From positions 13,301,758 to 13,365,757 of the forward strand of contig OX453280.1 of assembly GCA_949710005.1 (NCBI GenBank): a stretch of DNA of 64,000 nt, read 5' to 3'. Below, one piece after another: positions 10,508-50,416 of this stretch; the first letter of the stretch is position 1, and each line of letters starts with the position of its first letter. The stretch is from Ricordea florida (taxonomy: Eukaryota > Cnidaria > Anthozoa > Corallimorpharia > Ricordeidae). Below the pieces are notes generated by a model. It saw nothing but the letters and a program-made list of their open reading frames with translations, was not told the DNA's origin and did not search any database. Made by a program: the position numbers and the translations under genes.

Positions 10508-10688
10508 AATTCAAATCAAATCAAATATTGATTTTTGTGGAGAGGGGAAAACCGGAGTACCCGGAAAAAAACCTCTCGGAGCAGAGTAGAGAACCAACAG
10601 ACTCAACCCACAGATGACGCCGAGCCGGGAATCGAACCCGGGACACATTGGTGGAAAGCAAGCGCTCTCACCACTGCGCCAACCCTGT
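10508..10688 (-). mobile_element. tRNA-derived SINE
   Basis: On the minus strand the head is tRNA-like, with an A box TGGCGCAGTGG (10671-10681) and a B box GGTTCGATTCC (10628-10638) spaced as in a tRNA promoter. A conserved-looking body containing CTCCGAGAGGTTTTT and GGGTACTCCGGTTTTCCCC follows, ending in an ATTTGATTTGATTTG tail. The body resembles central domains shared by many metazoan SINEs (possibly Nin-DC); that name is from memory and unverified. It is transcribed by Pol III if active. Confidence 0.85.
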
Positions 10689-10835
10689 ATGGGGCCTGTC
10701 TGAGTTTTTGTTTAAAAAGCTCTAGGGAGGAAGCATCCTTGATGGCTTTGGGTATTGAATTCCAAACTATGGGTCCTCTTGATATCCTTGAGCTAAAATT
10801 ACTGGAAAATTCAATGTCTGACGATGGTTTTCAAA
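10689..10835 (-). mobile_element. LINE reverse-transcriptase C-terminal fragment
   Basis: The minus strand encodes SRISRGPIVWNSIPKAIKD followed by an SSLELFKQKLRQ end, the typical terminal piece of CR1/RTE/L2-type LINE ORF2 (the WNSIP motif and LF-x-x-K-L). It is truncated at both sides and abuts the SINE head exactly where the LINE frame would end. Confidence 0.75.
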
Positions 10836-10993
10836 CATATAGGATAGATCATCCTAGTGGTTTTTGTATAAAATGCTTGAAAATTCACATATTTAAAGGA
10901 CAGGTTCTAGATTTAATTGCACAGAAAGATAAACCTATACAATTAGCGTTTGGATTCATAAATAAGAGTGAGGAAATTTTTAAATATTTTTAA
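10814..10993 (+). CDS. Unidentified plus-strand frame at viral element edge
   Basis: An open stretch of about 60 residues contains FQTYRIDHPSGFCIKCLKIH and ends IFKYF. It is followed by two more plus-strand pieces (11016-11160 and 11163-11357) of similar lysine/isoleucine-rich style. Their base composition is like the minus-strand viral genes that follow, so I infer they are the divergently oriented edge genes of the same element. The first 20 bases overlap the LINE fragment, so the true start is unknown. Confidence 0.35.
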   Translation: MSDDGFQTYRIDHPSGFCIKCLKIHIFKGQVLDLIAQKDKPIQLAFGFINKSEEIFKYF

Positions 10994-11015
10994 AAAGAAA
11001 CTAATATTATTAAAC

Positions 11016-11160
11016 AATCGGGAGATCTATCCAAAAATATGATTCTAACATCATAAGACTAGGTCTACAAACCATAGAATTTAGTTATGAAAACACTGAA
11101 TGGTCTTTAGATAAAATAACACGGTTTGATAAAATAATTAAAGAAACACGATCCATATAA
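11016..11160 (+). pseudogene. Unidentified frame, probable viral gene piece
   Basis: The frame contains KYDSNIIRLGLQTIEFSYEN and FDKIIKETRSI before a stop. It lacks a start codon and lies between two other plus-strand pieces of the same style. No family was recognised; it may be one broken gene with its neighbours. Confidence 0.3.
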
Positions 11161-11162
11161 TA

Positions 11163-11357
11163 ATGACAATGTACAGTCAATACAGGATAATTGGAATGGG
11201 ATTTAATCCTGAGAAATTCCTTATTAACATTAGACCAGGAGTCAATATCATTCGAAATAAAAATAAACCTATCCGAATGAAGTTTACTTTAACCTATAGA
11301 TTCACGAGACAGACCGATAAAAATTCAGGCTGCTTCGAATACAACGTAGAAAAATAA
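11163..11357 (+). CDS. Unidentified 64-residue frame, probable viral gene
   Basis: A basic, beta-strand-rich looking protein (MTMYSQYRIIGMGFNPEKF at the start). It begins right after the previous stop and is the last plus-strand piece before the minus-strand block. No family was recognised. Confidence 0.35.
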   Translation: MTMYSQYRIIGMGFNPEKFLINIRPGVNIIRNKNKPIRMKFTLTYRFTRQTDKNSGCFEYNVEK

Positions 11358-11499
11358 CTAAATTGACCAATATTTCCAACATTTTCGATACTATGGTCCA
11401 ACGATTACTCCAGTTAATCAGACGGTTTCAAAATGGGGGCTCGGGTTTGCAGTTTGACCGCGTTAAAAGCTTTGACGCTAATACATATCAATTTAATAA

Positions 11500-11779
11500 C
11501 TAATGCACCCAACCACATGCACGACATTTTCGCTCACGTTTCCATCTAGGCGTTTCTGGGCTGTCGCATTTACCGCATAACACGTTCCTTTTGATGTATG
11601 TAGCAAGAACCCCTTGTAGCTTTTGGACAGAATGGTTGCCCCGAATGTAGATTTTATTACCAACAATGTTAACACGACAGGCTTTAGATCAGATAAATAT
11701 CATTTGTAATCTCTTCGGAATTGCCAATGATAATAGTGCCACCATCTCTCGAAATATATGACGCTGTAATTGGCTGCAT
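11500..11779 (-). pseudogene. eIF2-beta/eIF5-like zinc-ribbon protein of the viral element
   Basis: Two frames make up the gene. The upstream part (11684-11779) starts MQPITASYISRDGGTIII. After a frameshift near 11683 the second part (11500-11682) carries VLATYIKRNVLCGKC-x-SPET and ends C-x2-C-GWVH. In eIF2-beta/aIF2-beta/eIF5 proteins the C-terminal domain has the same Y-I-K-x-x-V-x-C-x2-C-x-SP-x-T order and a zinc ribbon of two C-x2-C pairs, here 13 residues apart. The known role is in the translation-initiation ternary complex. A viral copy could favour viral translation, which is inference. It is now broken. Confidence 0.6.
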
Positions 11780-11860
11780 TTTATACCGATAATTAGGATC
11801 ATCTGAACCATTAACGCTCATCTTTACTTTATGTAACAGCCTAAATAAGAACCGTGCTAA

Positions 11861-12067
11861 TCAACCAATAGCAGCCGTCATCATAATAAGATTAATCTGG
11901 TGCTGAGAATTCGTCGCAGGAGGCATAGCATTAGCACTAACATAACTTACGTCAGGTTTCGCTTGTTTATTCTCAACATTGAACTCTGGTCTATGCATAT
12001 ATTTGTCGGAGTATTGGACAACCTTCATATCTTTGGACTGATTTCGATATGTCGTTCTCAATGACAC
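11861..12067 (-). CDS. Small probable membrane protein, copy 1
   Basis: A 68-residue frame whose C-terminal part SANAMPPATNSQHQINLIMM leads into a short hydrophobic end. About 130 bp around it (11812-11950) is repeated with divergence at 18294-18440, where the related frame reads SANAVPAATNSQH. No family was recognised; two copies in one element indicate internal duplication or two recombined relatives. The N-terminal third may belong to the capsid frame upstream. Confidence 0.4.
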   Translation of the reverse strand: MSLRTTYRNQSKDMKVVQYSDKYMHRPEFNVENKQAKPDVSYVSANAMPPATNSQHQINLIMMTAAIG

Positions 12068-12109
12068 TAGATTCCAACAATGTTATAAATTATTGTTGGG
12101 TATCCATAG

Positions 12110-12921
12110 CCCCTACACCATTTTCAACTATTGATGAACTTGTACTAACTTGAGCTCCTAAAAAACAATAAACAAAGGCCTCTACCGATCTATTCAATCT
12201 ACCTAAACCAGACTTAGTCAAACCTACACCCTTAGCTGCAATAAACCAAGAATATCGCAAGTCCTCCTGATCATCATTACGTATCCAACCATCTAAATTT
12301 CCATTGTTTTGTGTTCCGCCTTCATCGGAAAAGAGATTTAACTTATACGGTCATCTATTTGCCTCAGCATAATATCCTCTAACAACATAACGTTTTTGAT
12401 AGCCCGAACCAGGACCATCACCGGGGTAAAATACAAATATATCACCCAATCCATGGTTTCTTCCACCCGCCACCTAAAATCTGGATTAGTGGGCAAAGTC
12501 TCCCGAAAGCAACCTTATTATATGGGTTACTTATCGAATTAAATACAGGATCATCTAGCGGAACGCTCAATTCATATAAAATTTTTCTGACGGTAAAATA
12601 AGTGTGAAAATCAATGAAGCTGGATACAACAGGAGGATAATTAGTGGTATCCAGTAGACTAACACCGCATCCAGATGTTGCACACCAAACAACAAAGCTT
12701 AACTGCTGAGGCCAATGGTTAAAATCAGGTTCATTAAGCCATTTTCTGCATTGTTTAGCGTATCTGAATGTTACAGTGGTCTCTCGGAAAATATCTCGCA
12801 TTTCCACCGTGAACGTTTGCTTTGGAGAAACATAAATATCCAACTCAGTATCAAACTCGGTTAAGTCAGCTTCTGAGTCGAAATTTATAGCAGGTATAGG
12901 ATAGGTTTCATCGGTTAATTA
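12110..12921 (-). pseudogene. Capsid-like protein, copy 1 (frameshifted)
   Basis: An open frame covers 12442-12921, with SFVVWCATSGCGVSLL and FIDFHTYFTVRKILYEL. After a frameshift near 12450 the gene continues with GWIRNDD, RYSWF, GLGRLNRSVEAFV and SVQRY to about 12060. An in-frame TAA lies near 12090. The C-terminal half aligns by eye with the plus-strand frame at 21677-22310. I recognise this as a family of unannotated cnidarian proteins that travels with the packaging ATPase, and infer a jelly-roll major capsid protein. The N-terminus is cut at 12921 by an inserted palindrome-ended repeat. Confidence 0.5.
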
Positions 12922-13300
12922 CTGGGTTGCCATGGCAATCCAGTATTAAAATGGGGTTGCTATTTTTTTTTTCTCCGTGAGAAATTGCAATTCTTGCGCA
13001 ATATTGCCTATACAAGGCCGCCGCTGTGTGATTGGCTCGGCATGAACATCGCCATAACAACCTGATTGAAGTAAGCACGACGGTGAAGAGAACGTGAAAA
13101 GTTTCTTGTGGACTCCATTCGCCTAAGTGTTTTTCTTGTGCAAAGCTGCTCTCTTTTCGAGCTGTTAACTCGATTTATTCACTAAATGACTTTATTAGTG
13201 TCTATGTTTGCTATTCCTGGATGTGTTTACGTGCTGGAGAGTGTTTTCTTCTTTAAACGTTGAGGTCTGTGGTGTTAGCGATTCCCTCGGTGAAAGGATT
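12922..13300. repeat. Inserted repeat with palindromic end
   Basis: The capsid frame stops at a palindrome, TACTGGGTTGCCATGGCAATCCAGTA (12919-12944). The following sequence has no viral style and contains GTGTGATTGGCTCGGC. I read it as a MITE-like insertion. The right border is not visible. Confidence 0.35.
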
Positions 13301-13514
13301 CACATCTTTTCTGTTGGAAATGTAGAGCTTATTTTTAAGAATTGGTTCACGCTTAGCAGACCACGTCCATCGAGTTCATGAGTTGATCCACGCGTGAAGT
13401 TTGGAAAGCAAGAGTGTGGCTCGCTGTGACATGTATTATTTTGAATCCGAGATAACAAGCTGGTTACGCACGTCAAACTACGATACTTCGTCTTAACTTG
13501 ACTTCTAAAAGCGA

Positions 13515-13700
13515 TCAAATCGAAAACATCGGGGGAAGCATTCTCATAAAGTGTTCATTTATATCTATAGCGTTGGATCCTCTATACTGTACAAAAACTA
13601 CAAAACCCGATATATAATTAACTGGAGCAAAAACAGTCCAGTGGTATGCAGCTTCATTGAATTTCAAAATCATTATTTGCGACAACACCGAAACCGGCAC
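13515..13700 (-). CDS. Unidentified 61-residue frame
   Basis: The frame reads MPVSVLSQIMILKFNEAAYH and later VNYISGFVVFVQYRGSNAID. It lies between the inserted repeat and the LINE and could be the detached N-terminal part of the capsid-like gene or another viral gene. No motif decides this. A second minus-strand frame (13300-13518) overlaps its end. Confidence 0.25.
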   Translation of the reverse strand: MPVSVLSQIMILKFNEAAYHWTVFAPVNYISGFVVFVQYRGSNAIDINEHFMRMLPPMFSI

Positions 13701-13789
13701 ATACCCACCAATTTAAGGAACTTATCTATTTCTGGTGAACTTCACGCTTTCAAATAAAATGTTGAACCTCCAAAACGGGTCAGAAGAAG

Positions 13790-15345
13790 GGTAAAGGTAA
13801 AGGTAAAGGTCAACTTTATTTAGGCAGGGTGGCCCAATCAGCACTTGGCTGGTATCAAAAGGGGCCCTGCGTAAATTAAGACTACATTAGATTTCTATAT
13901 ATAAAGCGCTTAAAAATACAAATGAAATATAATTATTTTTAAAAAATTGAAAAAAAACTACTCTCTAAAATAAAGTCTAAGAAGATTCTTAAAAATGGGG
14001 AGCGATGTTGCTTCTTTTATTGTAGTGGGTAAATTATTAAAATGAAGCGCACCAGAGTATCTGAAAGTCCTTTTCCCTAGCGTTAACTTGGGTTTCGGCA
14101 AGTGCATGTCGTTCCTTTTCCTCGTGTTGTAAGAATGAACGTTACAATTTCTAATAAAATAATCCGACAAATATGGAGGAGCTAAATTATTTAAACATTT
14201 AAAAACTAAAATGCATTTGTGGGCTTTTCTTTGGGTTTCTAAATCCACCCACCCTAACATTTCAAAAGATCCTTCGGTTGTTGCCCTCCTTTGTATAATG
14301 CGTGCTGCTCTTTTTTGCACACTTTGCAAGCTGTTACTGCAACCAATTGACAGCCCATCCCATACCGTGTTAGTGTAATCAAAAATCGGCTGAACTAAAC
14401 AATTATATACGCATTTAGCAGCTTTTAGAGTAAGGTAGGGTCGTATGCGGGACAGCAGGCCGAGACGTTTTCTTACTTTCTTACAAATCAATTCTAAATG
14501 TTCGTTCCATGAAAGATTCTCATCTAGTGTTACCCCTAAGTAACAGAAACTTGATACTCTGTCAATGTTTTTCCCATGAAGCTCTATTTCATAATCTGGA
14601 CAGTGTTCTAGTTTTTGCCTAGTTCCAAACAGCATCCATTTAGTTTTACTCTGATTGAGTATCAACCTGTTGCTTACTAACCATTTCTCAACATTGGTAA
14701 GATCGTTTTGAAGAACCTGCTTGATGACATCTGGACAGGAATGAGAGAAATATATAACAGTGTCGTCGGCATACATGCCTATTGATGACTTCAGTAGACT
14801 TTGCGGGAGATCATTAATGTATATCACAAATAGTATCGGGCCCAGTATGGATCCCTGGGGAACCCCATAACCAATAGTTAAGCTCGATGATTAGTCTTGG
14901 TTGTATTTGACCTTCTGAGATCGAGCTGTAAGGTAGTCTTCGAACCATTTCAAACTTTTCCCTCTAATTCCATAATGCTCTAGCTTGTGGAGCAGGCAGA
15001 GGTGGTCAACGAGGTCGAACGCTTTTTTTAGGTCAATAAAAATAGACCCGGTAATCCTCTTTTTATCCATTTGTTCTAAAATGTGATCAACAAAGTGTAC
15101 AGTGGCTGTTTCAGTGGAGTGTTTCTTACGGAATCCTGATTGATGCACTGACAAGGAATTGTTTCTGAATAGAAATGCTACAAGCTGTAATTGAATTGCT
15201 CGTTCCATTACTTTAGAAATCAACGGAAGGACTGAAATCGGACGATAATTATTTGGGTCGCTCTTATCGCCAGATTTGTATATTGGAGTTACCTTCGCAG
15301 TTTTCCATTCAGATGTTACTAAGGGTTCACAAAGGCAACCCAGTG
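13790..15345 (-). mobile_element. 5'-truncated CR1/L2-type LINE
   Basis: The minus strand encodes about 460 residues of reverse transcriptase in one frame with a single in-frame TAA (14891-14893). Motifs in order: TPIYKSGDKSDPNNYRPIS, HQSGFRKKHST, SIFIDLKKAFD, GVPQGSILGP, MYADDTVIYF (catalytic DD) and FCYLGVTLDENLSWNEH. The RT block is followed by a C-terminal region ending LRLYFRE. A TTTACC-repeat tail (minus strand) at 13790-13812 marks the 3' end. The 5' end at about 15345 abuts a viral frame, so the LINE inserted into the viral element after integration. Confidence 0.85.
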
Positions 15346-15616
15346 AAGGCTTTTGAAGCCTCTTGTTTTAAAACATATGGGAACGATTCATGAATACCTA
15401 GATCCTTGAGTAACTTAACCTTCAAATCCTAGCTAAGATCTTCAGTCCAAGTTTTCCCGGATAGGTCATCATAACTCATTACAGTAAGTGTATTGTATTT
15501 CCAGTAGATATATCCACCATAGCTGTCAGGAACAAATTTAAACTTTGACATATCAGCCCTTGGATATTTATTGCTGAATTAGTGGAGTAAAGTGTGATGT
15601 TATTATTATCAGACAT
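15345..15616 (-). pseudogene. Broken viral gene truncated by LINE
   Basis: A start at 15616 reads MSDNNNITLYSTNSAINI. A second frame over 15575-15345 reads FVPDSYGGYIYWKYNTLTVM and LLKDLGIHESFPYVLKQEAS before running into the LINE. Aromatic and Tyr/Gly-rich composition resembles structural proteins, but I recognise no family. It is interrupted by one frameshift, one in-frame TAG and the LINE insertion. Confidence 0.35.
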
Positions 15617-15807
15617 CTTATTGTTATTGGTTAACGTTTCTTTAATACGGAGAGATCTCTATTGGGGGTTAATATAATCGTAACTTATTATATTAACCAT
15701 CCTCCATAGCTGCTAGAAAAAATGTTCCATCTTATTCTAATTCTTAAGTTATTTTAAAGCAACCAATCTGATAAACAAATCCTACTGGCGATCGCTCAAT
15801 GATATTC

Positions 15808-16377
15808 TCATTTTACGCTCTTTGAAATTTCTTCTAACATCTCCTTCCGAATCTGAGTACGAAGCTCTGCAATATCTGGAGTCTTTTTTCCAATATTTGT
15901 CTGTCTCACTCTAATATCTAGCTTCATATTATTGTACTTTCCCTCTTCGGCTCAGATCACTGAAAATTCCACTTCAGATATTTTATTATCCAGTAGCGCT
16001 CACGATGTCATATCATTTAATGTGTTAACCTTTGCCTTAGCTAATTGAATTGTCTAAGCGTGTTTAGCTATCTTCCTAAATAATTTTACTCCAGAAATAG
16101 CACCAAATAATACACCAACTACACCAAAGGGAGCACCTACCGAGGCACCAAAGCCCGTTACAAATAATGCTAATCCAGCACCTGATAGAAAGACAGAAAT
16201 TCCACCAGTTGTCCATACAATTATTTTTCTTAACCGGGTATATTTTTTCCGCGTAGACTCATAATGCTGGATTTTATTTTCAAGATTTTGCAATACCTCG
16301 CATGATCGTTTGAGTCTGAAATTGTCTCCATTACCTTCTGCTTGAAACTGTAGATAGATTCTGTTGTAATTATCCAT
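15808..16377 (-). pseudogene. Gly-rich membrane-active protein with three in-frame stops
   Basis: A single 190-codon frame. The start MDNYNRIYLQFQAEGNGDNF is followed by a charged helix, then a hydrophobic glycine-rich segment at about residues 51-98 (SVFLSGAGLALFVTGFGASV), then a charged helical tail DIRVRQTNIGKKTPDIAELR ending SVK. In-frame stops are TAG at 16054-16056, TGA in TS-stop-ALLD and TGA in VI-stop-AEEG. Both TGA codons are consistent with CGA-to-TGA decay at CpG. The family recurs in cnidarian virus-like elements as far as I recall; the function is unknown, and membrane penetration or an inner-membrane protein is a guess. Confidence 0.5.
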
Positions 16378-16418
16378 TTCAATAATCTAAGTAACATAGC
16401 TTTAAATTACTTTTTCGT

Positions 16419-17024
16419 TTATACTGCTCTACCATATATACAACCACAGTAACTATTAAATGCCAATCCAACAACCTGCCCCGCAGTTCGGAAGATGAAA
16501 CCCTCTATTGCACCTATCATTCCATGTAATATTTGACCAATCTTCTTTCCAAGCTCTCGTAATCCATTACCAACACCCTTTGCAACATTGGTTAACCCTT
16601 CTTTAGATTCTAGACAACGACACCGATAACCACGCCAACTGCACTAAGTACAGCAAAGGCAATAAATCCATATTTCTCAAATATAGACTTGACGCGGTCC
16701 CTCAAAGGGGTTCTACCTTCTATAGCCTCAATATCTTGATTTTCCTCTCTCAATAACTTAATTGTTTTGCCCCATTTGACTGCGTTCCCCGTTTATATTT
16801 TGATTAGCGTTAGCTCGTCGTTCATCAGAGGTTGAAGAATCATTAAGTATTTCCTCTTGCTGTCGAATCTTGACTTCACGTCGTTTGTTATCCTCCCGCT
16901 TAGCCTTAACGACTTCACGTTTAGCCTCAACAATCTCCTCTGCTGGTTTTCCAATATTCCATCTTACGGTTACGGGCAATTGATCATTCACTGCTTCGTT
17001 TGCTTTAAAGCAAAGATGATCCAC
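16419..17024 (-). pseudogene. Coiled-coil plus transmembrane viral protein (frameshifted)
   Basis: The N-terminal part (17024-16758) starts MDHLCFKANEAVNDQLPVTV and has a long charged coiled coil rich in KRE repeats. Overlapping frames continue with TPLRDRVKSIFEKYGFIAFA and AVGVVIGVVV (a transmembrane helix), then a TAG. A third frame reads NVAKGVGNGLRELGKKIGQI and GFIFRTAGQVVGLAF to 16419. I infer one gene broken by two frameshifts. The TM-plus-amphipathic Gly/Lys end recurs in unannotated cnidarian proteins; its role is unknown. Confidence 0.5.
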
Positions 17025-17239
17025 CGCATCACACCATTGAGTTTTACTAAAACTTAACCATAATCATCCTCTCTAACTGTAAATGCAGATCGAATCTACG
17101 TTAGGATATTTAAATAGAATTCTTTCCCAAGCTGCATTGACCTGTTCTGGCCTCGCCGCCTCCTAAACAGGTTTCGTCTATGTCGGGTTGTGTTTTTGAT
17201 GTTGATTAATATGTGGATAATGGTAAATATTTAGTCCTT

Positions 17240-17458
17240 TTAAGGGTTGGTTTTGGGACGGGCTCCACTACCAGCTTTATACTTATTTGCCTTCCAAAAT
17301 TTATAAAAGGGGATTCTACTACTTTTCCTGCTATCAGAACCACCCGGTAATATAGGGTCTTCTTCACTAGGCTGTTCTTCCTCACCACCCCTTGCATCTG
17401 ATGGTTCACGAGGATCGTATTCGGGAAACGCTTCCGCCATTTCATATATTAAGCTCAT
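17240..17458 (-). CDS. Acidic small viral-element protein
   Basis: A 72-residue frame with an acidic middle (YDPREPSDARGGEEEQPSEE) and a basic end (FYKFWKANKYKAGSGARPKT). The internal Met at 17440 (MAEAFPEYDP) is the more likely start. It sits in the same-strand series of small genes with short spacers. No family was recognised. Confidence 0.4.
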   Translation of the reverse strand: MSLIYEMAEAFPEYDPREPSDARGGEEEQPSEEDPILPGGSDSRKSSRIPFYKFWKANKYKAGSGARPKTNP

Positions 17459-17613
17459 GGAATCTATAAGTTATAACCATCGACTAGCTAAATAACCGAG
17501 AGCTAACATCCCACCACCCACCCTTTGATTGCTACTAGGTCTGTAACAATCTATGAAGTTGGGTTCTCGTAATGTGTAATAGGGGATGTGTTTGACTGTA
17601 TAATTCTAATGCT

Positions 17614-17865
17614 CTATAAGTATTTGACATGTTTTTGTCTAGCCTTATATTTAACATCCTGTTGTCGGGAGTACCAATCCATTAATTTCTGTCGTCTTTC
17701 CCGGTATAACATATAATCATGTTGATATTGTTTCATAGCCTTATCGTGTCGAACTTTTTCTTCATCTGTGTTACTGTGAGATAAAGTTTTTGCAAGGTAA
17801 GAGCCTTCAACGGAAGCTGCAGCATTCAAAATAGCACCACCAATCATTAACGCTATTGAAGCCAT
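17614..17865 (-). CDS. Small hydrophobic-start viral protein
   Basis: An intact 83-residue frame. The start MASIALMIGGAILNAAASVE is a Gly/Ala-rich hydrophobic helix, followed by an Arg/Lys/Tyr-rich helical body (KQYQHDYMLYRERRQKLMDW). This hydrophobic-start, RHD-helix organisation recurs next to the ATPase and capsid genes in other cnidarian elements as far as I recall. It could be a minor virion or membrane-associated protein; the function is unknown. Confidence 0.5.
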   Translation of the reverse strand: MASIALMIGGAILNAAASVEGSYLAKTLSHSNTDEEKVRHDKAMKQYQHDYMLYRERRQKLMDWYSRQQDVKYKARQKHVKYL

Positions 17866-17920
17866 CTATATATTAGTTGGACAGACGTTTTTAGGTTAGT
17901 TAGGTTACTGATTGTTAGTT

Positions 17921-18240
17921 CTAGCAATCTTTCAACGCTAAAGATCCAGATAACACCACAACGCATTTAACATAGTTTGTAATACTCGACGAGGAGTCGC
18001 CGATGAACGATTCTTTCCTAAGCTTTTTACCATTAATCAAAGATGTGGCATCTTTAAATATGTTAAGCTGTAACATACCAATTTTAGAGGCAGTAGGTTG
18101 GGGAGGGCCTAGATAGTTCGGGTGGTTGACGAGGTTCAAGTACAACAACTCTAGATGGATTATTTTGTGGTATTTCATAAACATATCCAAAAGCCGTTAA
18201 CCCTACAGCAACTAGAGATATGACAATTTCAAAAGAGAGT
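17921..18240 (-). pseudogene. Single-pass membrane protein with Pro-rich stalk (frameshifted)
   Basis: One frame from about 18230 gives a hydrophobic helix VISLVAVGLTAFGYVYEIPQ, then EPRQPPELSRPSPTY. A second frame downstream gives SKIGMLQLNIFKDATSLING and ends ALKDC at 17921. I infer one gene with a frameshift near 18090. No family was recognised. Confidence 0.4.
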
Positions 18241-18333
18241 TCTTAGTTGACTAAGACGTACTTGATGGGGTAGACAATTTTTCTGAGATTAACCATTAAC
18301 GTTCATCTTTACTTTATGTAACAATCAATCTAC

Positions 18334-18489
18334 CTAAATATGAACCTTGCTAATCCACCCATAGAAAGTCGTCATCATAATAAGATTAATCTAGTGCTGA
18401 GAATTCGTTGCAGCAGGCACAGCATTAGCACTTTCAACTTTAACGGGGCTTGGGGGTTCTTTAGTAATCTGTTCAGTCTCCTCTGACAT
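18334..18489 (-). pseudogene. Small probable membrane protein, copy 2
   Basis: The start MSEETEQITKEPPSPVKVE leads into SANAVPAATNSQH, an in-frame TAG, then INLIMMTTFYGWI. The shared block with 11861-12067 shows it is a diverged duplicate. The stop sits exactly where copy 1 has Gln, so CAG-to-TAG decay is likely. Confidence 0.45.
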
Positions 18490-18546
18490 CTTGCTATGGG
18501 TAATGCTCTACTTTTTAAGTAGCTTCCTCAGTATTGCTAACAGCTT

Positions 18547-18886
18547 TTACAATTGTATAGCATTCTGTTGGGCGTCTCCTAATTTTACGTGCTTAGCTAC
18601 TTGGAATAGACTCACTAGAAAGTGCACGAATTGACCTCCCTTTAATACTCGTAAACCAGCAAAGTTTGACAGTTCACGTTTTACCAATTCATCATCCTCT
18701 AGATCTTGAAATAAGGCGTCGCAACTCAGTATCAATAGGGAGCAGATAGGAAATTACACGAGATGTAGCATAGAGAGGAGATTCTACTAGTCCACCAGTA
18801 ACTTGCTTTCCCAATACAACTTGGTAACGGTTATAATATTTTCCAACGTTTTTGCGAGAAAGCCTCATAATTTCACCTAGATTCAT
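18547..18886 (-). pseudogene. Unidentified viral gene (frameshifted)
   Basis: The start at 18886 reads MNLGEIMRLSRKNVGKYYNR; the frame ends at 18692. A second frame continues with LEDDELVKRELSNFAGLRVL to 18547. The start codon overlaps the stop of the upstream gene as ATGA (18883-18886), a compact viral style. No family was recognised. Confidence 0.4.
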
Positions 18887-19047
18887 TTCAGTTCCCGAAG
18901 ATAATCCTTAGCAGCTCCCAAAGAGACTAGGATAGCTAAAGTCTCTCGTTTCGCTTCAATACCATCATCTTCATTCTCTTTTGGCTTCCTGGAGGCTTCA
19001 TGTTCAGGCAAGGCCTCAGGCTCCATATATTCTTCGATAACTGACAT
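18883..19047 (-). CDS. Acidic small viral protein
   Basis: From Met at 19047 the frame gives about 54 residues, MSVIEEYMEPEALPEHEASR then ENEDDGIEAKRETLAILV. The first half is acidic and disordered, the second helical. The frame stays open to 19110, but the upstream part overlaps ATPase debris. Its stop overlaps the next start by 4 bp. The function is unknown. Confidence 0.4.
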   Translation of the reverse strand: MSVIEEYMEPEALPEHEASRKPKENEDDGIEAKRETLAILVSLGAAKDYLRELK

Positions 19048-19152
19048 CTTTAATCTCCAACGGCTGGAATCTCTAGATAGCATACAAATGGGAACCTTAA
19101 ACATAAACAATGTCTTTAATTTTTTTCTGATTTCAACCCTTCTATAAATTGC

Positions 19153-19593
19153 TTACTCGTGAATCTCAATATTCAAATCTCCAGCAAAATCTATAGAAGT
19201 TAATTGCTTAGTCAATAACCATACCGATAAGCCTTTTGTCTACTAGAAAAGGCTAAATCTATAAACTTAATGGGGCTTCGCTTCAAGTCTCTACTTGCAG
19301 CGCAATCCTCCAGGATTATTAATGTACCAGTACCGGAAAACAAGTTTCGCAACCATTAATAGTTGGTTAATCTCTTCACTGTTACTAGCATCAGGTGATA
19401 ACACTATGAATCGTCGATCTTTCTTAGCAAACCCTCGATAGGTTTTATTTTCACTGTACGTTAGAAAAATTATATAGCTAAATACACCACGAAAAGGCCC
19501 ATGAAGCTGATCTTCTAACTATTTAGTCTTACCGCAGTTAGTCGGTCCAGTTATAATAAGACTGAATGGAAGTTTATTTCTTAACTCCTCCAT
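19153..19593 (-). pseudogene. Genome-packaging ATPase (A32/FtsK-HerA type), frameshifted
   Basis: The start MEELRNKLPFSLIITGPTNC is followed by the P-loop GPTNCGKT at residues 17-24, then an in-frame TAG. The frame continues with FVSYIIF-like strands and FIVLSPDASNSEEINQLL. The Walker B segment, LIILEDCAAS, is in a different frame, and the following LAFSSRQ helix ends at a TGA. The first frame later gives SVWLLTKQLTSI, the sensor-like strand. P-loop, Walker B acidic pair and a Q-x-x-S strand in this order fit the packaging ATPases of Polinton-like, virophage and NCLDV lineages. It would have pumped viral DNA into capsids. At least two frameshifts and two stops disable it. Confidence 0.65.
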
Positions 19594-19659
19594 AGTTATA
19601 TATTATAACTGTTCTATACATGTATACTTAATTAGCAGTCGAAATATTCGCCGAGTCGC

Positions 19660-20480
19660 TTAGGCAGATACTTTACATATCGCTGCAATATGGTTAAGTC
19701 TAAATGGTAATCCATATTCCAAAACTACATAATAGATACAAGCTGCAATTATGTTGTGTGGTTTATTTCGGTCCCGGATAAGTAGCTGGTCTACTCGATC
19801 AGCAACTTCAGTAACCCTATCGATCGTGTGAGGACCGAAATCTGGATAACGGCATAAATGGTCAATGTAATCAGAATATGTAGTAGCCCGCTCGTTTGAG
19901 AGATCCATCCCTCTACTGACATATTTTGGTCTAATGCTGAACAAACTAGCAATTTTTCGATAGGTACGTGGTTTACTATGGTCTCTTAATACAAAATACA
20001 GAGCAGCGGCTTGCAATCCTACATCACACTTACCCCTTAGCAGAGGTAAATTATCTTCTCTCAGAGATCCGAGTAGTCGATAGTATCCATACTTGGCATA
20101 TATTCAATATAATGCTTTCGGGGATATCATTAATTCGACAAATGTATTCGATATGGTCTAATTTAAAGAGTAATGCGCGTTCATCATATGGAACTACATT
20201 CCATATAGCTCGAAGTTGTAAATCATGTTCGGCCCTAGTAGCATTAGGATGGATACCGACTCGAGTACTTAATGAGCTTTCCGGCAACATATGGTTGTGT
20301 GGTGGGTGTATTGCATCTACTCAGTTCCTCTCCGGTGTCGGTATTGCTCGTCCACTCTGGTCGGTAATCAATATAGCTACCAAAATTTGCACCGCAATCG
20401 ATACAAATAAAGTCTAATTCCATTTGCACAAGATGATTACTACCACAGTTTGAGCACAGGCTGAGTGGCGTTATATTAGT
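19660..20480 (-). pseudogene. TFIIB-like transcription initiation factor of the viral element
   Basis: At 20420-20460 a zinc ribbon has LCSNCG and FICIDCG (C-x2-C, 13 residues, C-x2-C). A spacer reaching RPEWTSNTDTGEELSRC follows, then, after a frameshift near 20260, the start of cyclin fold 1. A second frameshift near 20090 leads to LQAAALYFVLRDHSKPRTYR. Cyclin fold 2 contains NKPHNIIAACIYYVVLEYGL and ends IAAICKVSA. Ribbon plus two cyclin repeats is the TFIIB/TFB layout; cellular TFIIB recruits RNA polymerase II to promoters. The first CxxC lies upstream of the first ATG, so the start is lost or non-ATG. Two frameshifts make it inactive. Confidence 0.7.
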
Positions 20481-21050
20481 TAATACTTGATCGCTTTTAA
20501 GTTAGCGTTCATAATTTCCATTAACGCATCGGCTACAAGAAATATATAGCATTTAATTTTGCCTGGCTCCGTGAATACTATTACCGGCGTTGGTCCTATA
20601 GTCAATCCACAATCCAAACGTATCATCATAAAATCTCTTTCCCCCAGATTAACTCCCTCGAAACGTTCCTTGGCAGATTCCCAGAAGTCGAATGGAATAA
20701 TTTCCCATGGAGTACAAACGATTAGGTACACCATCAATATCGATGTTGATTGACTTAATATCAGGGTTAACAAACTTTTAAGAATCTCGTGTTCCACCAG
20801 TATGGTTATCAGTAAATAGGAATAATATTTCAGTCGCCGACCGTATTTATGTGCAAATTAATAATGCTATCATACTTCCTGGATATTGTAATAGTATCAA
20901 CTAGGTTAACATTTTCATAGTAAAATCCTATACCTACATGATAATTATGCTGATAGCGCTTGGCGAGCTAGATATTCACTGGATATAGTAATTTTAACCT
21001 GGTCCAACTCCATGTCACTGAGCTCGGAAAGCTTTTTATCCACCCCTCTG
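20480..21050 (-). pseudogene. Second capsid-like (penton/minor capsid) protein, broken
   Basis: The start region near 21013 gives MELDQVKITISSEYLARQAL. Two other frames carry VNLVDTITISRKYDSIINLH and KFVNPDIKSINIDIDGVPNR. The last frame (to 20480) contains GERDFMMIRLDCGLTIGPTP and ends KCYIFLVADALMEIMNANLK. Beta-rich segments and the ending style resemble a jelly-roll structural protein seen next to packaging ATPases in cnidarian elements; capsid function is inference. Its last codons overlap the upstream side of the TFIIB-like gene. Confidence 0.45.
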
Positions 21051-21289
21051 TCATTACACTAGTCTGAAAAAAATACATTGAGCCTATTCTTATTCACACA
21101 GAACACTTAAGTTTGCTCGTTTTAAATTGTGTATGTTTTGTAGATGAGCTGTTCAGCAATTTTATCGTTGCAGTGTGTAGGTTTCTAGCTTATTACTTAA
21201 ATTGTTGCAAATGTACAGAGACTTACAATAAAAGATTTCAGCTGAAAAATTTTAATTTTATATTGTTTTGTGCTTACCTTCAAATAGTT

Positions 21290-21515
21290 TCATTCCCGGC
21301 CCCATTTTGTTGTGTTCTTGGTGGCTTGTGCCTCGGCACCCTCAACGATAACGTCAAGGTCGTCTTCCGATAGCTTCAACGACTAAACGCGAGTTCTCGC
21401 CTGTATTCGCTTCTTCTTCTTCTTTATTTGTTATACTAATCTCAATATCAAAACCTTCAGCTGCTTCGTAGAGAACTCCATCAGGAATTTCTTTAACGAA
21501 TTTGTTTTTCGCCAT
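21290..21515 (-). pseudogene. N-terminal fragment of a Crypton/QRICH1-like gene, copy 2
   Basis: Met at 21515 starts MAKNKFVKEIPDGVLYEAAE with an acidic tail. In a shifted frame at 21290-21390 lie SEDDLDVIVEGAEAQATKNT and TKWGRE, then a stop, with GGTAAGC as a possible splice donor at about 21280. It is the relative of 2431-2628. It separates viral genes, so it inserted into the viral element. The family call rests on the A-T-K-x-x-T-K-W-G motif. Confidence 0.45.
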
Positions 21516-21586
21516 CTCCAACAAGAATGTCGATTAGAGATAATGTGGCCAAAAACAATAAAACAGACTTTTTCTATGTTTTATAA

Positions 21587-21670
21587 AAAAAATAAAGAAG
21601 CCTAAGCCTTGTACTATACTGTGATAAGACACGACGGGCCTGCGGCTTATGTTTTGTACATTTCACTCAT
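21587..21670. repeat. Partial foldback next to Crypton-like fragment
   Basis: AATAAAGAAGCCTAAGCC and CACGACGGGC match one arm of the foldback at 2251-2427; the other arm is missing. Capsid copy 2 resumes immediately after, so this is the insertion border. Confidence 0.65.
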
Positions 21671-21672
21671 GC

Positions 21673-22310
21673 TCTTTTTTGGTTAACTGGATACGTAATG
21701 ATGATTTTGTAGGCCTTAAATATTCTTGGTTATTCCTACTAATGGAGAAGGTTTCACTCGAGCTAGATTAGGCAGATTGAATAGATCGGTAGAGGCCTTG
21801 GTTATTTTTGTATTAGGGGCCCACGTTGATATAAACACATCCACAGCTGGAAATGGTGGTGGAGTCGTAGAGACCCAATTAGAATTTATTAAATTATTTG
21901 AAGATAATGTCATCAAGAGCGATATCAGTGCGGAATCAGTTCAAAGATATCGACTATATGTAAGTAAGGTTAAATTTAGATTGGATTTAGCTGTTGCCCC
22001 TGGCTTATGGCTAATGCGAAGTAATTTAATCATAAATACAAAAAGCGTGGCGGGATATAATAACGCACTTATGAAGGCTACTAGTGACATGGTGTTTGGA
22101 TTGAATAATTCAATAAACACTGAGACAAAAGATGTTGCAATTCGGCATAATATGGGTACTTCTAAAGTCGTCTTACAACATGCGTTTCGATCTAAAGCAG
22201 TCGAAGTGAGACCAAAAACAGATGTGAGTAAGGTTAATGAAAAACCCATAGTACAAAAAAATAGCCTAGTACAACTATTAAACAGCATGAAATCAATCTT
22301 GTCGCAGTAA
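21673..22310 (+). pseudogene. Capsid-like protein, copy 2 (C-terminal part, plus strand)
   Basis: A 5'-truncated frame gives NWIRNDDFVGLKYSW, a frameshift near 21735, then a 194-residue open frame with RLGRLNRSVEALVIFVLGA, ESVQRYRLYVSKVKFRLDLA, GLWLMRSNLIINTKSVAGYN and a basic C-terminus ending SILSQ. It aligns by eye with copy 1 (12.1-12.45 kb) up to SVQRY but lies on the opposite strand. The region after SVQRY, lost in copy 1, shows the normal gene end. The capsid role is inferred as for copy 1. Confidence 0.5.
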
Positions 22311-22344
22311 CAGTTGCAACGAGGGGTTTAGTATGGTTTTTATA

Positions 22345-22747
22345 TAGGTAGTCTGACTGAATAGTAAATTATTTGTTCTTTCACATTGGTTAGCATCTAT
22401 ATCAATACCAGTGAAATCTAAACCCGTTCATTAGGCTAGAATGGCAGTTATCCCCTGTCCTACAAAAGGACCAAGATAGTCTTAATCTTACTGTATTTAA
22501 GTACATGGAGAGCGTGGGCCGCAGCTAGATTTGGAGTTGCATTTTTATATAATCCTTCACTAGGGGAGATCACATTAGGGGTAACCTGGCCCGGACCTGC
22601 ATCTCTACTGTAACAAAGCATATGGGCATAAGTTGGTCGATGTAAGTCGGTGGAGTAAGGTTCGCGATGGAGTAGAATCTTATGCCAAAGTAAATTTATA
22701 TTATGTTTTTGTGCTATAGTGCTAATAATGTATGATTTATCTATCAA
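22345..22747 (-). pseudogene. DNA methyltransferase remnant
   Basis: From 22747 a frame has HRPTYAHMLCYSRDAGPGQV and SPSEGLYKNATPNLAAAHAL, ending at 22460. In another frame at 22434-22475 the SAM-binding motif GPFVGQGITAILA follows, then two stops, then LDFTGIDIDANQCERTN. A P-F-x-G-x-G-T/I-T motif plus a downstream GIDID strand is the motif I-II region of site-specific DNA methyltransferases. Viral MTases often protect or mark viral DNA. The catalytic (D/N/S)PPY motif is not visible, so it is a partial or permuted remnant. Confidence 0.55.
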
Positions 22748-22771
22748 TCTACCCTTATATTTACGCTCAGT

Positions 22772-22969
22772 TTGGATAAATATAGCATATTAACAACTGT
22801 TACTCAGCCGAAAAGACAGCCAAAAAGGTTAGATAGTAGAACAACAGAACGTTTTTATGATACGATTATACGTTATCAATATTTAAGTGGTTTTTATAAT
22901 AGTTATTTGAGATTCAAAGATCCTAGTAAACTACCGTGTTTCTGTCGTTTTCTTTCTGACCACTTTTGA
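22772..22969 (+). CDS. Unidentified 65-residue frame at right edge of viral element
   Basis: The frame reads MDKYSILTTVTQPKRQPKRL and DTIIRYQYLSGFYNSYLRF. The style is like the viral genes, and it ends 20 bp before an ATT microsatellite, taken as the outer edge. No family was recognised. Confidence 0.3.
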   Translation: MDKYSILTTVTQPKRQPKRLDSRTTERFYDTIIRYQYLSGFYNSYLRFKDPSKLPCFCRFLSDHF

Positions 22970-24242: not shown

Positions 24243-25466
24243 TTACAATGCTATTTCAAAGTAAACGGAATTAAGCGTAATAGGCGATGCATGATCTCTA
24301 AAGTTACCATCATTTTCTGGAGCGTATCTTTTAGTGGGCGGCTCTTTTGTAGCAACTGGATTCACTCTTGAACTCATACCATCGGCCCTGCGCCTCAAAG
24401 TGAGGATCGACGAAGCAGGACGAGAAAGTCGATCATTAACCCCGCAGTCATTGTAGGAACATGGTAGGATTTGGTAGAGTCCTTTTCTGTACTCTTTATG
24501 GAGAACAAAGTAGACACAAGGATTAATGGCACTGTTAGTCTGCCCTATAAAAATACAATAAAAAATCAAAGTTTCGGGAGGTGAACACGTTTGGTACTTC
24601 TCGTTGAAAAAGTTTATGAAGTATATCACGTGATAGGGAAGCCAGCACAACGCAAAGAGACAAACGAGAATTATGAGCATTCTGAGAAGTTTCTTTTTGG
24701 CTCGTGAATGCATCTGGTTGCGCCTGATCACAGCTTGCCCAGGGATGCGTCGATGCCAAACTTTGATTCCAACGGCAGTGTAGAGAATGATAATGACAGT
24801 AAGTGGAAACATGTAGAGAAGAATGAACAGAGCCAGGGTAAAATCTCTTCCAGCCGTGTCAGGGTCAAATAGAGGAGACCAGTCTTCGTAACAATAAAAT
24901 CTCTCTTGGTCGACTTTGATCCGACTGGAATATAAAAGAGGTGCGCAGATGAGAATGGAGATGATCCATATTGGAACTACTGCGTATATTGCCTGGTGAA
25001 GCAACGTCGCTCGCTTGAGAGGGAAGAGAACCGCGATGAACCTGTCTATGGCGATCGCCATCAATGAAAGCACAGAGCAAGCTATGGAAACATCTTGACT
25101 AAAACCCACAAGTTTACATATCACTTCCCCCACCATTCCTCCTACCACCATCTCTGCACTGTGAGTTATTTGCACCTGAAGCTGATAAGGCATGTGAAAC
25201 GCAGTTATTAAAAGGTCAGCAACGGCCATATTAACGATGAGGTGATGGGTGACGTTTCTCATTCGACGATTTCTACGTACCACGCATATGACCGCACAGT
25301 TACCGAGAAGGGACAGAGCAATAGCTACGGCATATAACGTGGAACGCACAACTCTCTTCTCCATAGTATACACCTCTGGTTCGGGACATTCAACCGTAAA
25401 AACACCATTTCCTTCAGCAATCTTTGTGGAACCCACACTGCCGTTTGTAATTGTTGTGTTTGTCAT
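24243..25466 (-). CDS. Rhodopsin-family (class A) GPCR, intact single exon
   Basis: An intact 407-residue receptor. Possible N-glycosylation sites lie at N3 and N8. TM1 has GN (N56), TM2 N79 and D84, and TM3 begins at C117, which would pair with C192 in ECL2 (FYCYEDWSPLF). The TM3 end is DRF (141-143) in place of DRY. P221 lies in TM5, CWLP at 274-277 in TM6 and NPCVY at 315-319 in TM7. The tail has Cys residues (PCSYNDC) suited to palmitoylation and ends EIAL, a possible class II PDZ ligand. The overall pattern suits neuropeptide-receptor-like class A members. The ligand is unknown, and G-protein signalling at the plasma membrane is inferred from family. A broken paralogue lies 5 kb away on the same strand. 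Confidence 0.93.
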   Translation of the reverse strand: MTNTTITNGSVGSTKIAEGNGVFTVECPEPEVYTMEKRVVRSTLYAVAIALSLLGNCAVICVVRRNRRMRNVTHHLIVNMAVADLLITAFHMPYQLQVQITHSAEMVVGGMVGEVICKLVGFSQDVSIACSVLSLMAIAIDRFIAVLFPLKRATLLHQAIYAVVPIWIISILICAPLLYSSRIKVDQERFYCYEDWSPLFDPDTAGRDFTLALFILLYMFPLTVIIILYTAVGIKVWHRRIPGQAVIRRNQMHSRAKKKLLRMLIILVCLFALCWLPYHVIYFINFFNEKYQTCSPPETLIFYCIFIGQTNSAINPCVYFVLHKEYRKGLYQILPCSYNDCGVNDRLSRPASSILTLRRRADGMSSRVNPVATKEPPTKRYAPENDGNFRDHASPITLNSVYFEIAL

Positions 25467-48866: not shown

Positions 48867-50416
48867 TCACTGATACACTACAAAGTTATTAAATCGCTTC
48901 GGCAATTTAACAGTTCGAGTGGGCCTGGCAGACGGCTGTGCTGAGGTTAGTGGGCTTGACTCCCGAGTGTATTGTTCCTCCACTGTTACGCGGCTTGGAC
49001 TTTGCGTATCGGGGAATTGCGAAACACCGTTTTCGCTTGCTGCTGTGTCTCTCTCCATGTTCCTTTTTACAAACGATACATTCCGCTTGATTTCGACACC
49101 TTCCTTGTCCCTCACCGTCACCTCTCCGCCCTTCCTCTCTATAACTTCGCAAGGTTGTGGGGCAAAGCTGGGGGACATTTTGTTTGTCTTGGTGTTCTTT
49201 AACAGAACTTGGTCCCCGACTGTCACCGGGCTTGGGGCTGCATGTCTCCTTTTATCTGCATAGTACAACAGCGCCATTTTCTTCGACCAATCTCGGACAC
49301 GCACTTCTTCGCTGGTGACTCTTACTTCCCGCTGTGGTCCAGGTAGTTTCGACCGCATTTCATGGCCAAACATTAAATAAAAAGGTGTGACACCAGTTAT
49401 ACTGTGTGGTGTCGACCGGTAGGCCATCAGGAACACGTGTATTTCTTGTCGCCAATCTTTTCCTTCGACTGCAGCTACTCTCAGGGACTTCATTAACGAA
49501 CGTTTTTGGCTTTCCACTTCCCCGTTTGCTTCTGGCCATAAAGGCGGGGACGTCCGGTGTTCCACTCCGTTTTCCTTCAGGAATGTCTCGAACTCTTCTG
49601 ATATCAGTTGGGGACCATTTTCGGTCTTCGAAAACACGGTACCCCAAACCGAGCAAACATTTGCCTCAGGTTTTCGATAATCTTTGTGCTGGTGAAAGAC
49701 TTCATGACAATAGCCTCAAAGTACCTGCTGTAATAATCCACGTTTACCATTATGTTCTCCCCAGAGGGTAGAGGGCCTAAAATGTCAACAGTGCAGTCGT
49801 ACCATGGGCCACTTGGTGGTACCGTTCTGGCCAAGGGTTCTGGGGCTGGATACTCGCTGACAATTTGGCATTTGTGACAGCTCTTACATAGCTTCTCAGC
49901 ATCTGTATCAATTTTGGGCCACCATGCTTTTCTCCGTAGTCGATACTTGGTTTTTACAACGCCTTGGTGCCCCTCGTGGGCTAACTTTAACACGTGAGGT
50001 CGAAGTTCTTGGGGAATAACAATCCTGGAACCCCTTAGAGCCAGGTGTCCATAAGTGCAAAGTTCATTCTGAACATGTAGGTACGCAGATATGTTCCACT
50101 TACTCCAATCTCCGCCTGTGATACAATCCTTGACAAGGTTCAGTTCTGGATCTTCAGCCGACACTTCTTCTATCTGAGAGGGTGGCAATGCACATGGGAC
50201 ACTGTTCTTGGCAATGGCATGGACAACATCATAGTTTTCTCCGAAAGCTAGGTGGACTTTACAGTTTAACCTCAACAAGGAGTCAGCGATACTTGTCTTT
50301 CCGGGCTTATCAATTACTTTAAAGCTGTAGGCTTGTAAGCGGAGCACCCATCTTTCCACCCGCGCTGAAGGCCTTGATGTTTTCGAGCATATATATTCTA
50401 AGGGTTTCTCTTCCAA
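48867..50416 (-). pseudogene. Gypsy integrase region
   Basis: The zinc domain has HEGHQGVVKTKYRLRRKAWW then CKSCHKCQ (H-H-C-C). The catalytic core has WYDCTVDILGPL (first Asp). In the downstream frame ENGPQLISEEF has Glu where the second catalytic Asp is usual, and PEANGEVES supplies the Glu. A chromo-like C-terminus ends RFNNFVVYQ. The two halves are in different frames around 49620. The D-to-E change and the frameshift predict no activity. Confidence 0.8.

Follow-up and report, generated by a model that had tools for sequence, protein, structure and literature searches.

How does a small virus-like element in an animal genome come to carry homologues of initiation factors for both transcription and translation? 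The question is raised by a stretch of the corallimorpharian Ricordea florida (GCA_949710005.1, contig OX453280.1, positions 13,301,758 to 13,365,757; 64,000 nucleotides, hereafter the window), in which an original prediction, made from the sequence alone, had placed an endogenous DNA-virus-like element at 10,814–22,969. This was largely borne out: positions 10,814–20,986 hold a decayed Polinton/Maverick-type element with minus-strand genes, collinear with largely intact copies elsewhere in the genome (G000; 537.8 Mb, 48 contigs). From high to low coordinates, the minus-strand order is the C-terminal half of a capsid-like gene (CAPa), a TFIIB-like gene, an A32-type ATPase, the small genes g3, g4, g5, g6 and g8, a second conserved gene (CAPb), and an eIF5/IF2-beta-like gene, matching the predicted run of small compact genes mostly on one strand. 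Most of the element’s genes were assigned by tblastn with stop-free open reading frames (ORFs) of largely intact relatives as queries. Every identified gene in the window is broken or shortened by stops, frameshifts, inserts or truncation; this copy is inactivated and truncated, and its interest rests on its lineage. We consider it very probable that the window holds one such remnant of a multicopy Polinton/Maverick-type endogenous virus lineage whose TFIIB and eIF5/IF2-beta N-domain genes would have served viral initiation.

The TFIIB-like gene spans ~19,603–20,477 (minus strand) in three frames, with one further stop near its end. Its cyclin region was recognised in frame 19,663–20,103 (PF00382, E 9.9e-10, above cutoff) and extends into frame 20,054–20,320, and frame 20,247–20,501 matched a zinc ribbon (Zn_Ribbon_TF, E 4.5e-5, below cutoff), in agreement with the zinc-ribbon/two-cyclin gene first described. 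A PDB search with the window piece returned human TFIIB (E 1.3e-4). TFIIB residues are recognisable from ~12 nt after the capsid stop, with no start ATG seen in the window copy; at the other end, a stop in the tail frame, probably TFIIB’s own, lies 9 nt ahead of the ATPase ATG. Across the genome this piece had at least 98 matches at E 0.001 (a lower bound, with 150 of 162 candidates scored). Against 5.8 billion proteins it drew 11 candidates, none at E 0.01; these were only ~81–257 amino acids long, and full-length relatives therefore could not appear.

The neighbouring ATPase, frameshifted at 19,059–19,593 (minus strand; tblastn 50% over 140 residues, E 1e-35), is the predicted packaging ATPase and is of the A32 type: its relatives in loci L006 and L012 matched PF04665 (Pox_A32) above cutoff (1.6e-12 in the young elements). 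A 304-base piece of it found at least 41 matches in the genome, equal to 40 merged places (40 of 1,125 first-look candidates were scored, making the count a lower bound). We read 31 distinct places of these 40 (the window, L004, L009–L024 and L034–L046), a non-random sample made up of the closest matches to the window together with young copies. In 15 of the 31, TFIIB flanks the ATPase on its capsid-gene side (the window, L018–L021, L034, L035, L037, L038 and L040–L045); L021 retains only the zinc ribbon, and the TFIIB pieces of L041 stand in disturbed order. At L047 (C7:23,435,698), a stop-free TFIIB frame of 277 codons sits between a capsid C-terminus and a broken ATPase.

The eIF5/IF2-beta N-terminal-domain-like gene occupies 11,500–11,821 (minus strand), frameshifted and with its four zinc-ribbon cysteines retained. 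The zinc-ribbon domain at 11,503–11,688 matched PF01873 above cutoff (E 1.7e-9), and the best PDB match was human eIF5 (E 7.5e-7), upholding the predicted eIF2-beta-like zinc ribbon. Genome-wide, the piece had at least 76 matches (119 candidates, all scored; a lower bound). In three of the five other places read (L048, L049 and L050), the same strand carries the CAPb C-terminus immediately ahead of the eIF5-like frame (the L048 tail contains a stop); the window has a comparable junction at 11,822–12,023 (minus strand), where a probable CAPb tail, identified by eye, leads into the eIF5-like start. At L050 the CAPb stop is followed by 22 nt and then the ATG of a 122-codon eIF5-like frame, whose best PDB matches were archaeal IF2-beta (9.6e-10) and human eIF5 (2.4e-8), so in size the predicted element protein corresponds to the eIF5 N-domain or to an archaeal IF2-beta. 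PF01873 scores ranged from 8.1e-18 to 8.7e-16 for L050, L048, L049 and L051 and reached 3.6e-6 for L052; the frames of L050 and L048 are stop-free (8.7e-18 and 8.7e-16). The window, L048, L050 and L051 retain the arginine of the eIF5 motif (R-Y-K/R), a residue that acts in GTPase activation in eIF5, and L049 has it as R-Y-T (by eye). Separately, three eIF5-like matches on contig C16 (19,889,165, 19,940,251 and 19,991,336) recur at 51.1-kb intervals, which points to a tandem array with units of ~51 kb.

Are the two factors a property of the lineage or a coincidence of one locus? Merging matches within 3 kb gave 80 TFIIB and 74 eIF5 loci, and at 16 of the 74 eIF5 loci a same-strand TFIIB locus lies upstream, no more than 12 kb away. 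Shuffled positions gave a mean of 0.08 such pairs under uniform placement (2,000 runs) and 0.078 under circular shift (5,000 runs), with a maximum of 2 in each; guessed lengths were used for contigs C11, C13, C14 and C16 in one analysis and for C13 and C14 in the other. TFIIB was downstream at only two eIF5 loci, one of which also had it upstream, and on the opposite strand at one. Likewise, 13 of the 40 ATPase places follow a same-strand TFIIB at a distance of up to 3 kb, with no other arrangement in that range; five eIF5 loci come after one of these 40 ATPases by at most 12 kb, and one comes before. Mere clustering of elements is therefore excluded by the fixed order and strand. TFIIB-bearing copies also hold other Polinton genes, with PolB-like pieces in L020 and L021/L026 and integrase pieces in L021/L026 and L045. 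The TFIIB and eIF5-like genes are thus traits of the lineage, paired in older copies in constant order, and the pairing that the original prediction had singled out as unusual is a recurrent one. That the two pieces are instead host retropseudogenes, landed by chance in or beside an old element, is very unlikely: both window copies are broken, and the eIF5-like gene begins as eIF5 does (MSVN..YRYKM), but position and strand recur across many copies, neighbours are spaced 9–22 nt apart, and divergent stop-free copies show an excess of third-position differences.

That excess came from comparing codon positions between copies. Third positions held more than one third of the differences in all nine comparisons, eight of them at p < 0.05; the comparisons share sequences and the p values are uncorrected. 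For the eIF5-like gene, third positions accounted for 25 of 47 differences between L048 and L050 (p 0.004) and for 52 of 116 between L048 and L051 (p 0.0065). For TFIIB, the fractions were 0.41–0.47 in pairs with L047 (p 0.019–0.038) and 0.38 for L044 against the window (p 0.2), and the zinc ribbon showed 9/11/21 differences by codon position between the window and L020 and 12/11/22 between the window and L021. This pattern fits constraint followed by decay, as judged from the codons, though weakly for TFIIB.

If both genes were under constraint, what might they have done? In the reading we prefer, an intact element would have integrated, been replicated by its own polymerase and used the A32 ATPase to package its DNA. 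The element’s TFIIB homologue would link the host TATA-binding protein and RNA polymerase II to viral promoters, and its eIF5/IF2-beta-like N-domain protein may bind eIF2 or the 43S complex, where it could bias start-codon selection or the rate of initiation toward viral mRNAs. Whether animal Polintons, more than 10-fold smaller than giant viruses, thereby carry a two-factor kit that redirects both host transcription and translation initiation we regard as an even bet. A live rival, possible but doubtful, is a decoy role, in which a divergent TFIIB and an eIF5/IF2-beta N-domain standing alone block host initiation or defence instead of serving viral expression. The eIF5-like frame, at only 122 codons, lacks the C-terminal part of eIF5, and the L047 TFIIB is divergent, both as decoys might be; the TFIIB cyclin region, the zinc ribbon and the eIF5 N-domain arginine (by eye) are, however, retained, as expected of active factors.

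Identification of the element as a Polinton rests on its relatives. The 16 ATPase places read first led to young elements with mostly open genes, some of them split by frameshifts, that contain a PolB-like gene, an RVE integrase (PF00665), CAPa, the Pox_A32 ATPase, small genes and CAPb. The L012 integrase scored 36.4 bits against a cutoff of 32.6. One element on contig C3 (6,370,754–6,384,210, 13,457 bp; L029/L027) is bounded by terminal inverted repeats, 83% identical over 438 columns when the ends were compared as separate pieces, with a 5-bp ATTCC repeat outside them (by eye), a candidate target-site duplication; it carries the PF00665 integrase and the Pox_A32 ATPase, and the g6 gene of another copy adjoins its end. 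An RVE integrase, an A32/FtsK-like ATPase and terminal inverted repeats are features shared with Polintons/Mavericks (Polintoviruses), whose cnidarian members include those of Hydra and Nematostella (PMC4028283), and the PolB-like gene and the putative jelly-roll-like capsid gene resemble theirs. At 13.5 kb, this relative is shorter than the 15–20 kb of Polintons (PMC4028283). Unlike known Polintons, the present lineage has TFIIB and eIF5/IF2-beta-N genes and an endonuclease-VII-like domain in its PolB-like protein, and no adenain-like protease was found in it.

Several observations weigh against the reading of a Polinton lineage with paired, functional initiation-factor genes. The PolB-like gene of the relatives is a large ORF with polymerase motifs seen by eye, in which Pfam, PHROGs and PDB searches recognise only the embedded endonuclease-VII-like domain. 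No protease family was detected among 10 ORFs of young copies; an adenain-like protease is identifiable in 74% of Polintons (PMC4028283) and is therefore not universal, so its absence does not exclude a Polinton. The original prediction had made its case depend on these genes occurring together in intact relatives, and here the outcome was mixed, on balance favourable: older copies carry both in constant order, but the young, largely intact elements carry neither, with both sites seen in L012/L027 and L014, and the young group, in which CAPa abuts the ATPase without TFIIB, makes up 11 of the 31 ATPase places. No TFIIB match lies within 12 kb upstream of 58 of the 74 eIF5 loci, and loss, decay or separate carriage is therefore common. 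On C7, 16 kb separate the stop-free TFIIB frame from the stop-free eIF5-like frame, so a fully intact element holding the two together was not seen. The eIF5-like frames of L051 and L052 were not seen beside CAPb in the short pieces available, L047’s stop-free TFIIB has diverged strongly (PF00382 0.0011, below cutoff; PDB TFIIB 0.021), and the broken TFIIB cyclin pair of the window and L020 shows no third-position excess (39/26/39).

Could the window instead hold a fragment of a giant virus? TFIIB and eIF2-beta/eIF5-N proteins appear as giant-virus genes in PMC12638062, PMC11464507 and PMC6401483, and the Loki’s Castle viruses likewise have TFIIB as a marker gene together with eIF2-beta/eIF5-N domain proteins (PMC6401483). 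A fragment of a nucleocytoplasmic large DNA virus (NCLDV) could draw on this overlap, since such viruses encode A32, a major capsid protein and TFIIB (PMC12638062) as well as eIF2-beta/eIF5-N proteins (PMC6401483). We nonetheless give that origin almost no weight: the relatives speak against it in their gene order and size and in having an integrase, a PolB-like gene and terminal inverted repeats. A large genome with RNA polymerase and other NCLDV core genes was not what we found, the repeat-bounded relative measuring 13.46 kb. NCLDV genomes run to hundreds of kilobases and include RNA polymerase subunits, unlike the integrase-bearing Polinton layout. Of the affiliations originally offered, Polinton-like, adinto-like or NCLDV-related, the first stands and the last reduces to shared gene families. 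It is improbable, if somewhat less so, that a Polinton acquired the two genes from giant viruses and persists in the animal holobiont as a satellite of one, its TFIIB/IF2-beta mimicry aimed at the giant virus and not at the animal. Both genes do occur in NCLDVs (PMC12638062, PMC6401483), and Polinton-like viruses are said to lower giant-virus progeny in protists (PMC12220804); the elements here, however, are amplified in an animal genome, and no giant virus was seen.

A close published parallel, a coral-associated polinton/adintovirus of Stylophora, has a separate terminal-protein-domain gene that may correspond to the inward-facing PolB-N-like gene described below (PMC11071308). The main text of the paper describing it contains none of the terms TFIIB, transcription factor or translation (PMC11071308). 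The remnant is decayed, as predicted, and the proposed cnidarian lineage is consistent with this coral Polinton (PMC11071308). Among the listed titles and opening lines of abstracts we found no report of a TFIIB or eIF5-like gene in a Polinton; the search took in few subscription papers and no bioRxiv preprints, so that a report elsewhere is possible. Nor did IMG/VR viral contigs contain a relative when searched with a CAPb piece, an ATPase or an ATPase alignment. Within the known Polinton type, this lineage is set apart by its pairing of genes for transcription and translation initiation factors. Virus-encoded initiation factors have so far mostly been seen as a giant-virus trait, and with dozens of copies of each gene and at least 16 ordered pairings in one animal genome, a small Polinton-type virus can keep such factors. 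The compact proteins lend themselves to the study of TFIIB and eIF5/IF2-beta mimicry, their stop-free frames make the question testable, and the lineage bears on gene flow among Polintons, giant viruses and hosts.

The original prediction had also named two capsid-like genes and a methyltransferase motif. CAPa, present in the window as its C-terminal half (20,483–20,986, minus strand; residues ~222–412, tblastn E 2e-24), is a putative double-jelly-roll major capsid protein resembling NCLDV capsids. All eight relatives scanned matched the Capsid_N profile, at best at 1.8e-4 and 21.5 bits, below the cutoff of 24. Foldseek gave 13 matches at E ≤ 0.001 (best 4.9e-8), of which 3 carry a capsid or coat protein name, with TM-scores of 0.18–0.30 on a low-confidence model (pLDDT 45), and a PDB sequence search gave no match. 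The second proposed capsid, CAPb (15,593–12,024), was not supported: it is a conserved element protein, encoded by a 534-codon frame in L014 and with 1,985 relatives among public proteins, that had no capsid or family match and no fold match at E 0.001, and whose model, of low confidence, shows no jelly roll. A methyltransferase was not detected when 20 pieces of the window were scanned against Pfam.

CAPb is split in the window into residues ~14–83 at 15,384–15,593 (minus strand; 56% identity, E 5e-17) and residues ~94–401 at 12,024–12,918 (minus strand; 59% identity to the L014 ORF, E 3e-95). Between them, at 12,919–15,383, lies a retrotransposon-like insert that includes a reverse-transcriptase-like ORF pair (13,961–15,367, minus strand; named by eye); the L014 CAPb is uninterrupted. 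The small genes between CAPb and the ATPase, all on the minus strand, are g8, a hydrophobic protein (15,811–16,377; 45% over 198 residues, E 2e-50), g6, a coiled/transmembrane protein (16,412–17,138; 30–47%, E 4e-17), g5 (17,480–17,865; 57–71%, E 1e-34), g4 (18,087–18,564; assigned by eye and position, with no tblastn match) and g3 (18,565–19,050; 39%, E 1e-20). A 142-nt repeat splits g4, duplicating the junction of CAPb tail and eIF5 start (18,291–18,432 against 11,806–11,938) at 85% identity.

At the low-coordinate end, an inward-facing terminal gene on the plus strand carries two tandem PolB-N-terminus-like domains. The first is a weak remnant at 10,814–11,032 (match 10,571–11,032; 28% over 179 residues to the L029 PolB N-terminal ORF, E 1.8e-4), and the second, at 11,160–11,494, spans two frames (35–45% identity, E 6e-12); both E values come from a small local database. 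The relative L018/L032 has two such domains, likewise inward-facing, beyond its g8 end. An integrase and a PolB core were not found in the window copy by tblastn with the relatives’ ORFs, including at the expected site right of 21.0 kb. The earlier statement that no polymerase B or integrase was found therefore holds, in this truncated copy, for the integrase and the PolB core, but the PolB-N-like domain is present, and integrase and PolB-like pieces occur beside TFIIB in relatives.

The predicted span was accurate for 10.8–21.0 kb, but beyond it 21,726–22,274 (plus strand) belongs to another, inverted Polinton copy (CAPb residues 327–505; 59%, E 5e-61), and two ORFs at 22.4–23.0 kb matched no relative locus compared. 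The fragment forms an inverted repeat with the first CAPb (12,049–12,244; 72% identity over 196 nt). We rejected this 12.05/21.7-kb pair as terminal repeats because both members are CAPb coding sequence, present in two copies. Terminal inverted repeats, which the original prediction had proposed looking for, were not found in the window.

Several features of the young elements stand apart. Their polymerase-like protein contains the endonuclease-VII-like domain at L012:3–2483 and L009:7496–9901, and against phage records it gave only partial, endonuclease-type matches. A second polymerase-like gene type, ~20–26% identical to the first, occurs in an otherwise similar young element (L024:2–2323), with a piece of the same type (L026:1025–1495) near TFIIB-bearing L021/L026; polymerase exchange between lineages is a possible reading of these sequences. 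Repeated C..H/C..C motifs (by eye) mark small proteins in or near young elements (L014:5963–6436, L027:1391–1945, L039:1686–2201), and the L027 protein has a Rho_N/SAP-like start that also occurs, by way of the terminal repeat, in the PolB-like gene at the opposite end. An HUH-Rep-like ORF (L006:2–487/L017:3247–3732, minus strand), 0.8 kb from an ATPase copy, was dropped as a replication gene: REP_ORF2-G2P scored only 0.016, and it had no match in the window or in the other loci compared. Elsewhere in the window, 49,607–50,416 (minus strand) encodes an integrase zinc-binding domain (PF17921, 1.2e-17), probably of a long-terminal-repeat-type retroelement, and 24,243–25,466 (minus strand) is a single-frame rhodopsin-type G-protein-coupled receptor gene (7tm_1, E 3e-51), probably the nearest host gene.

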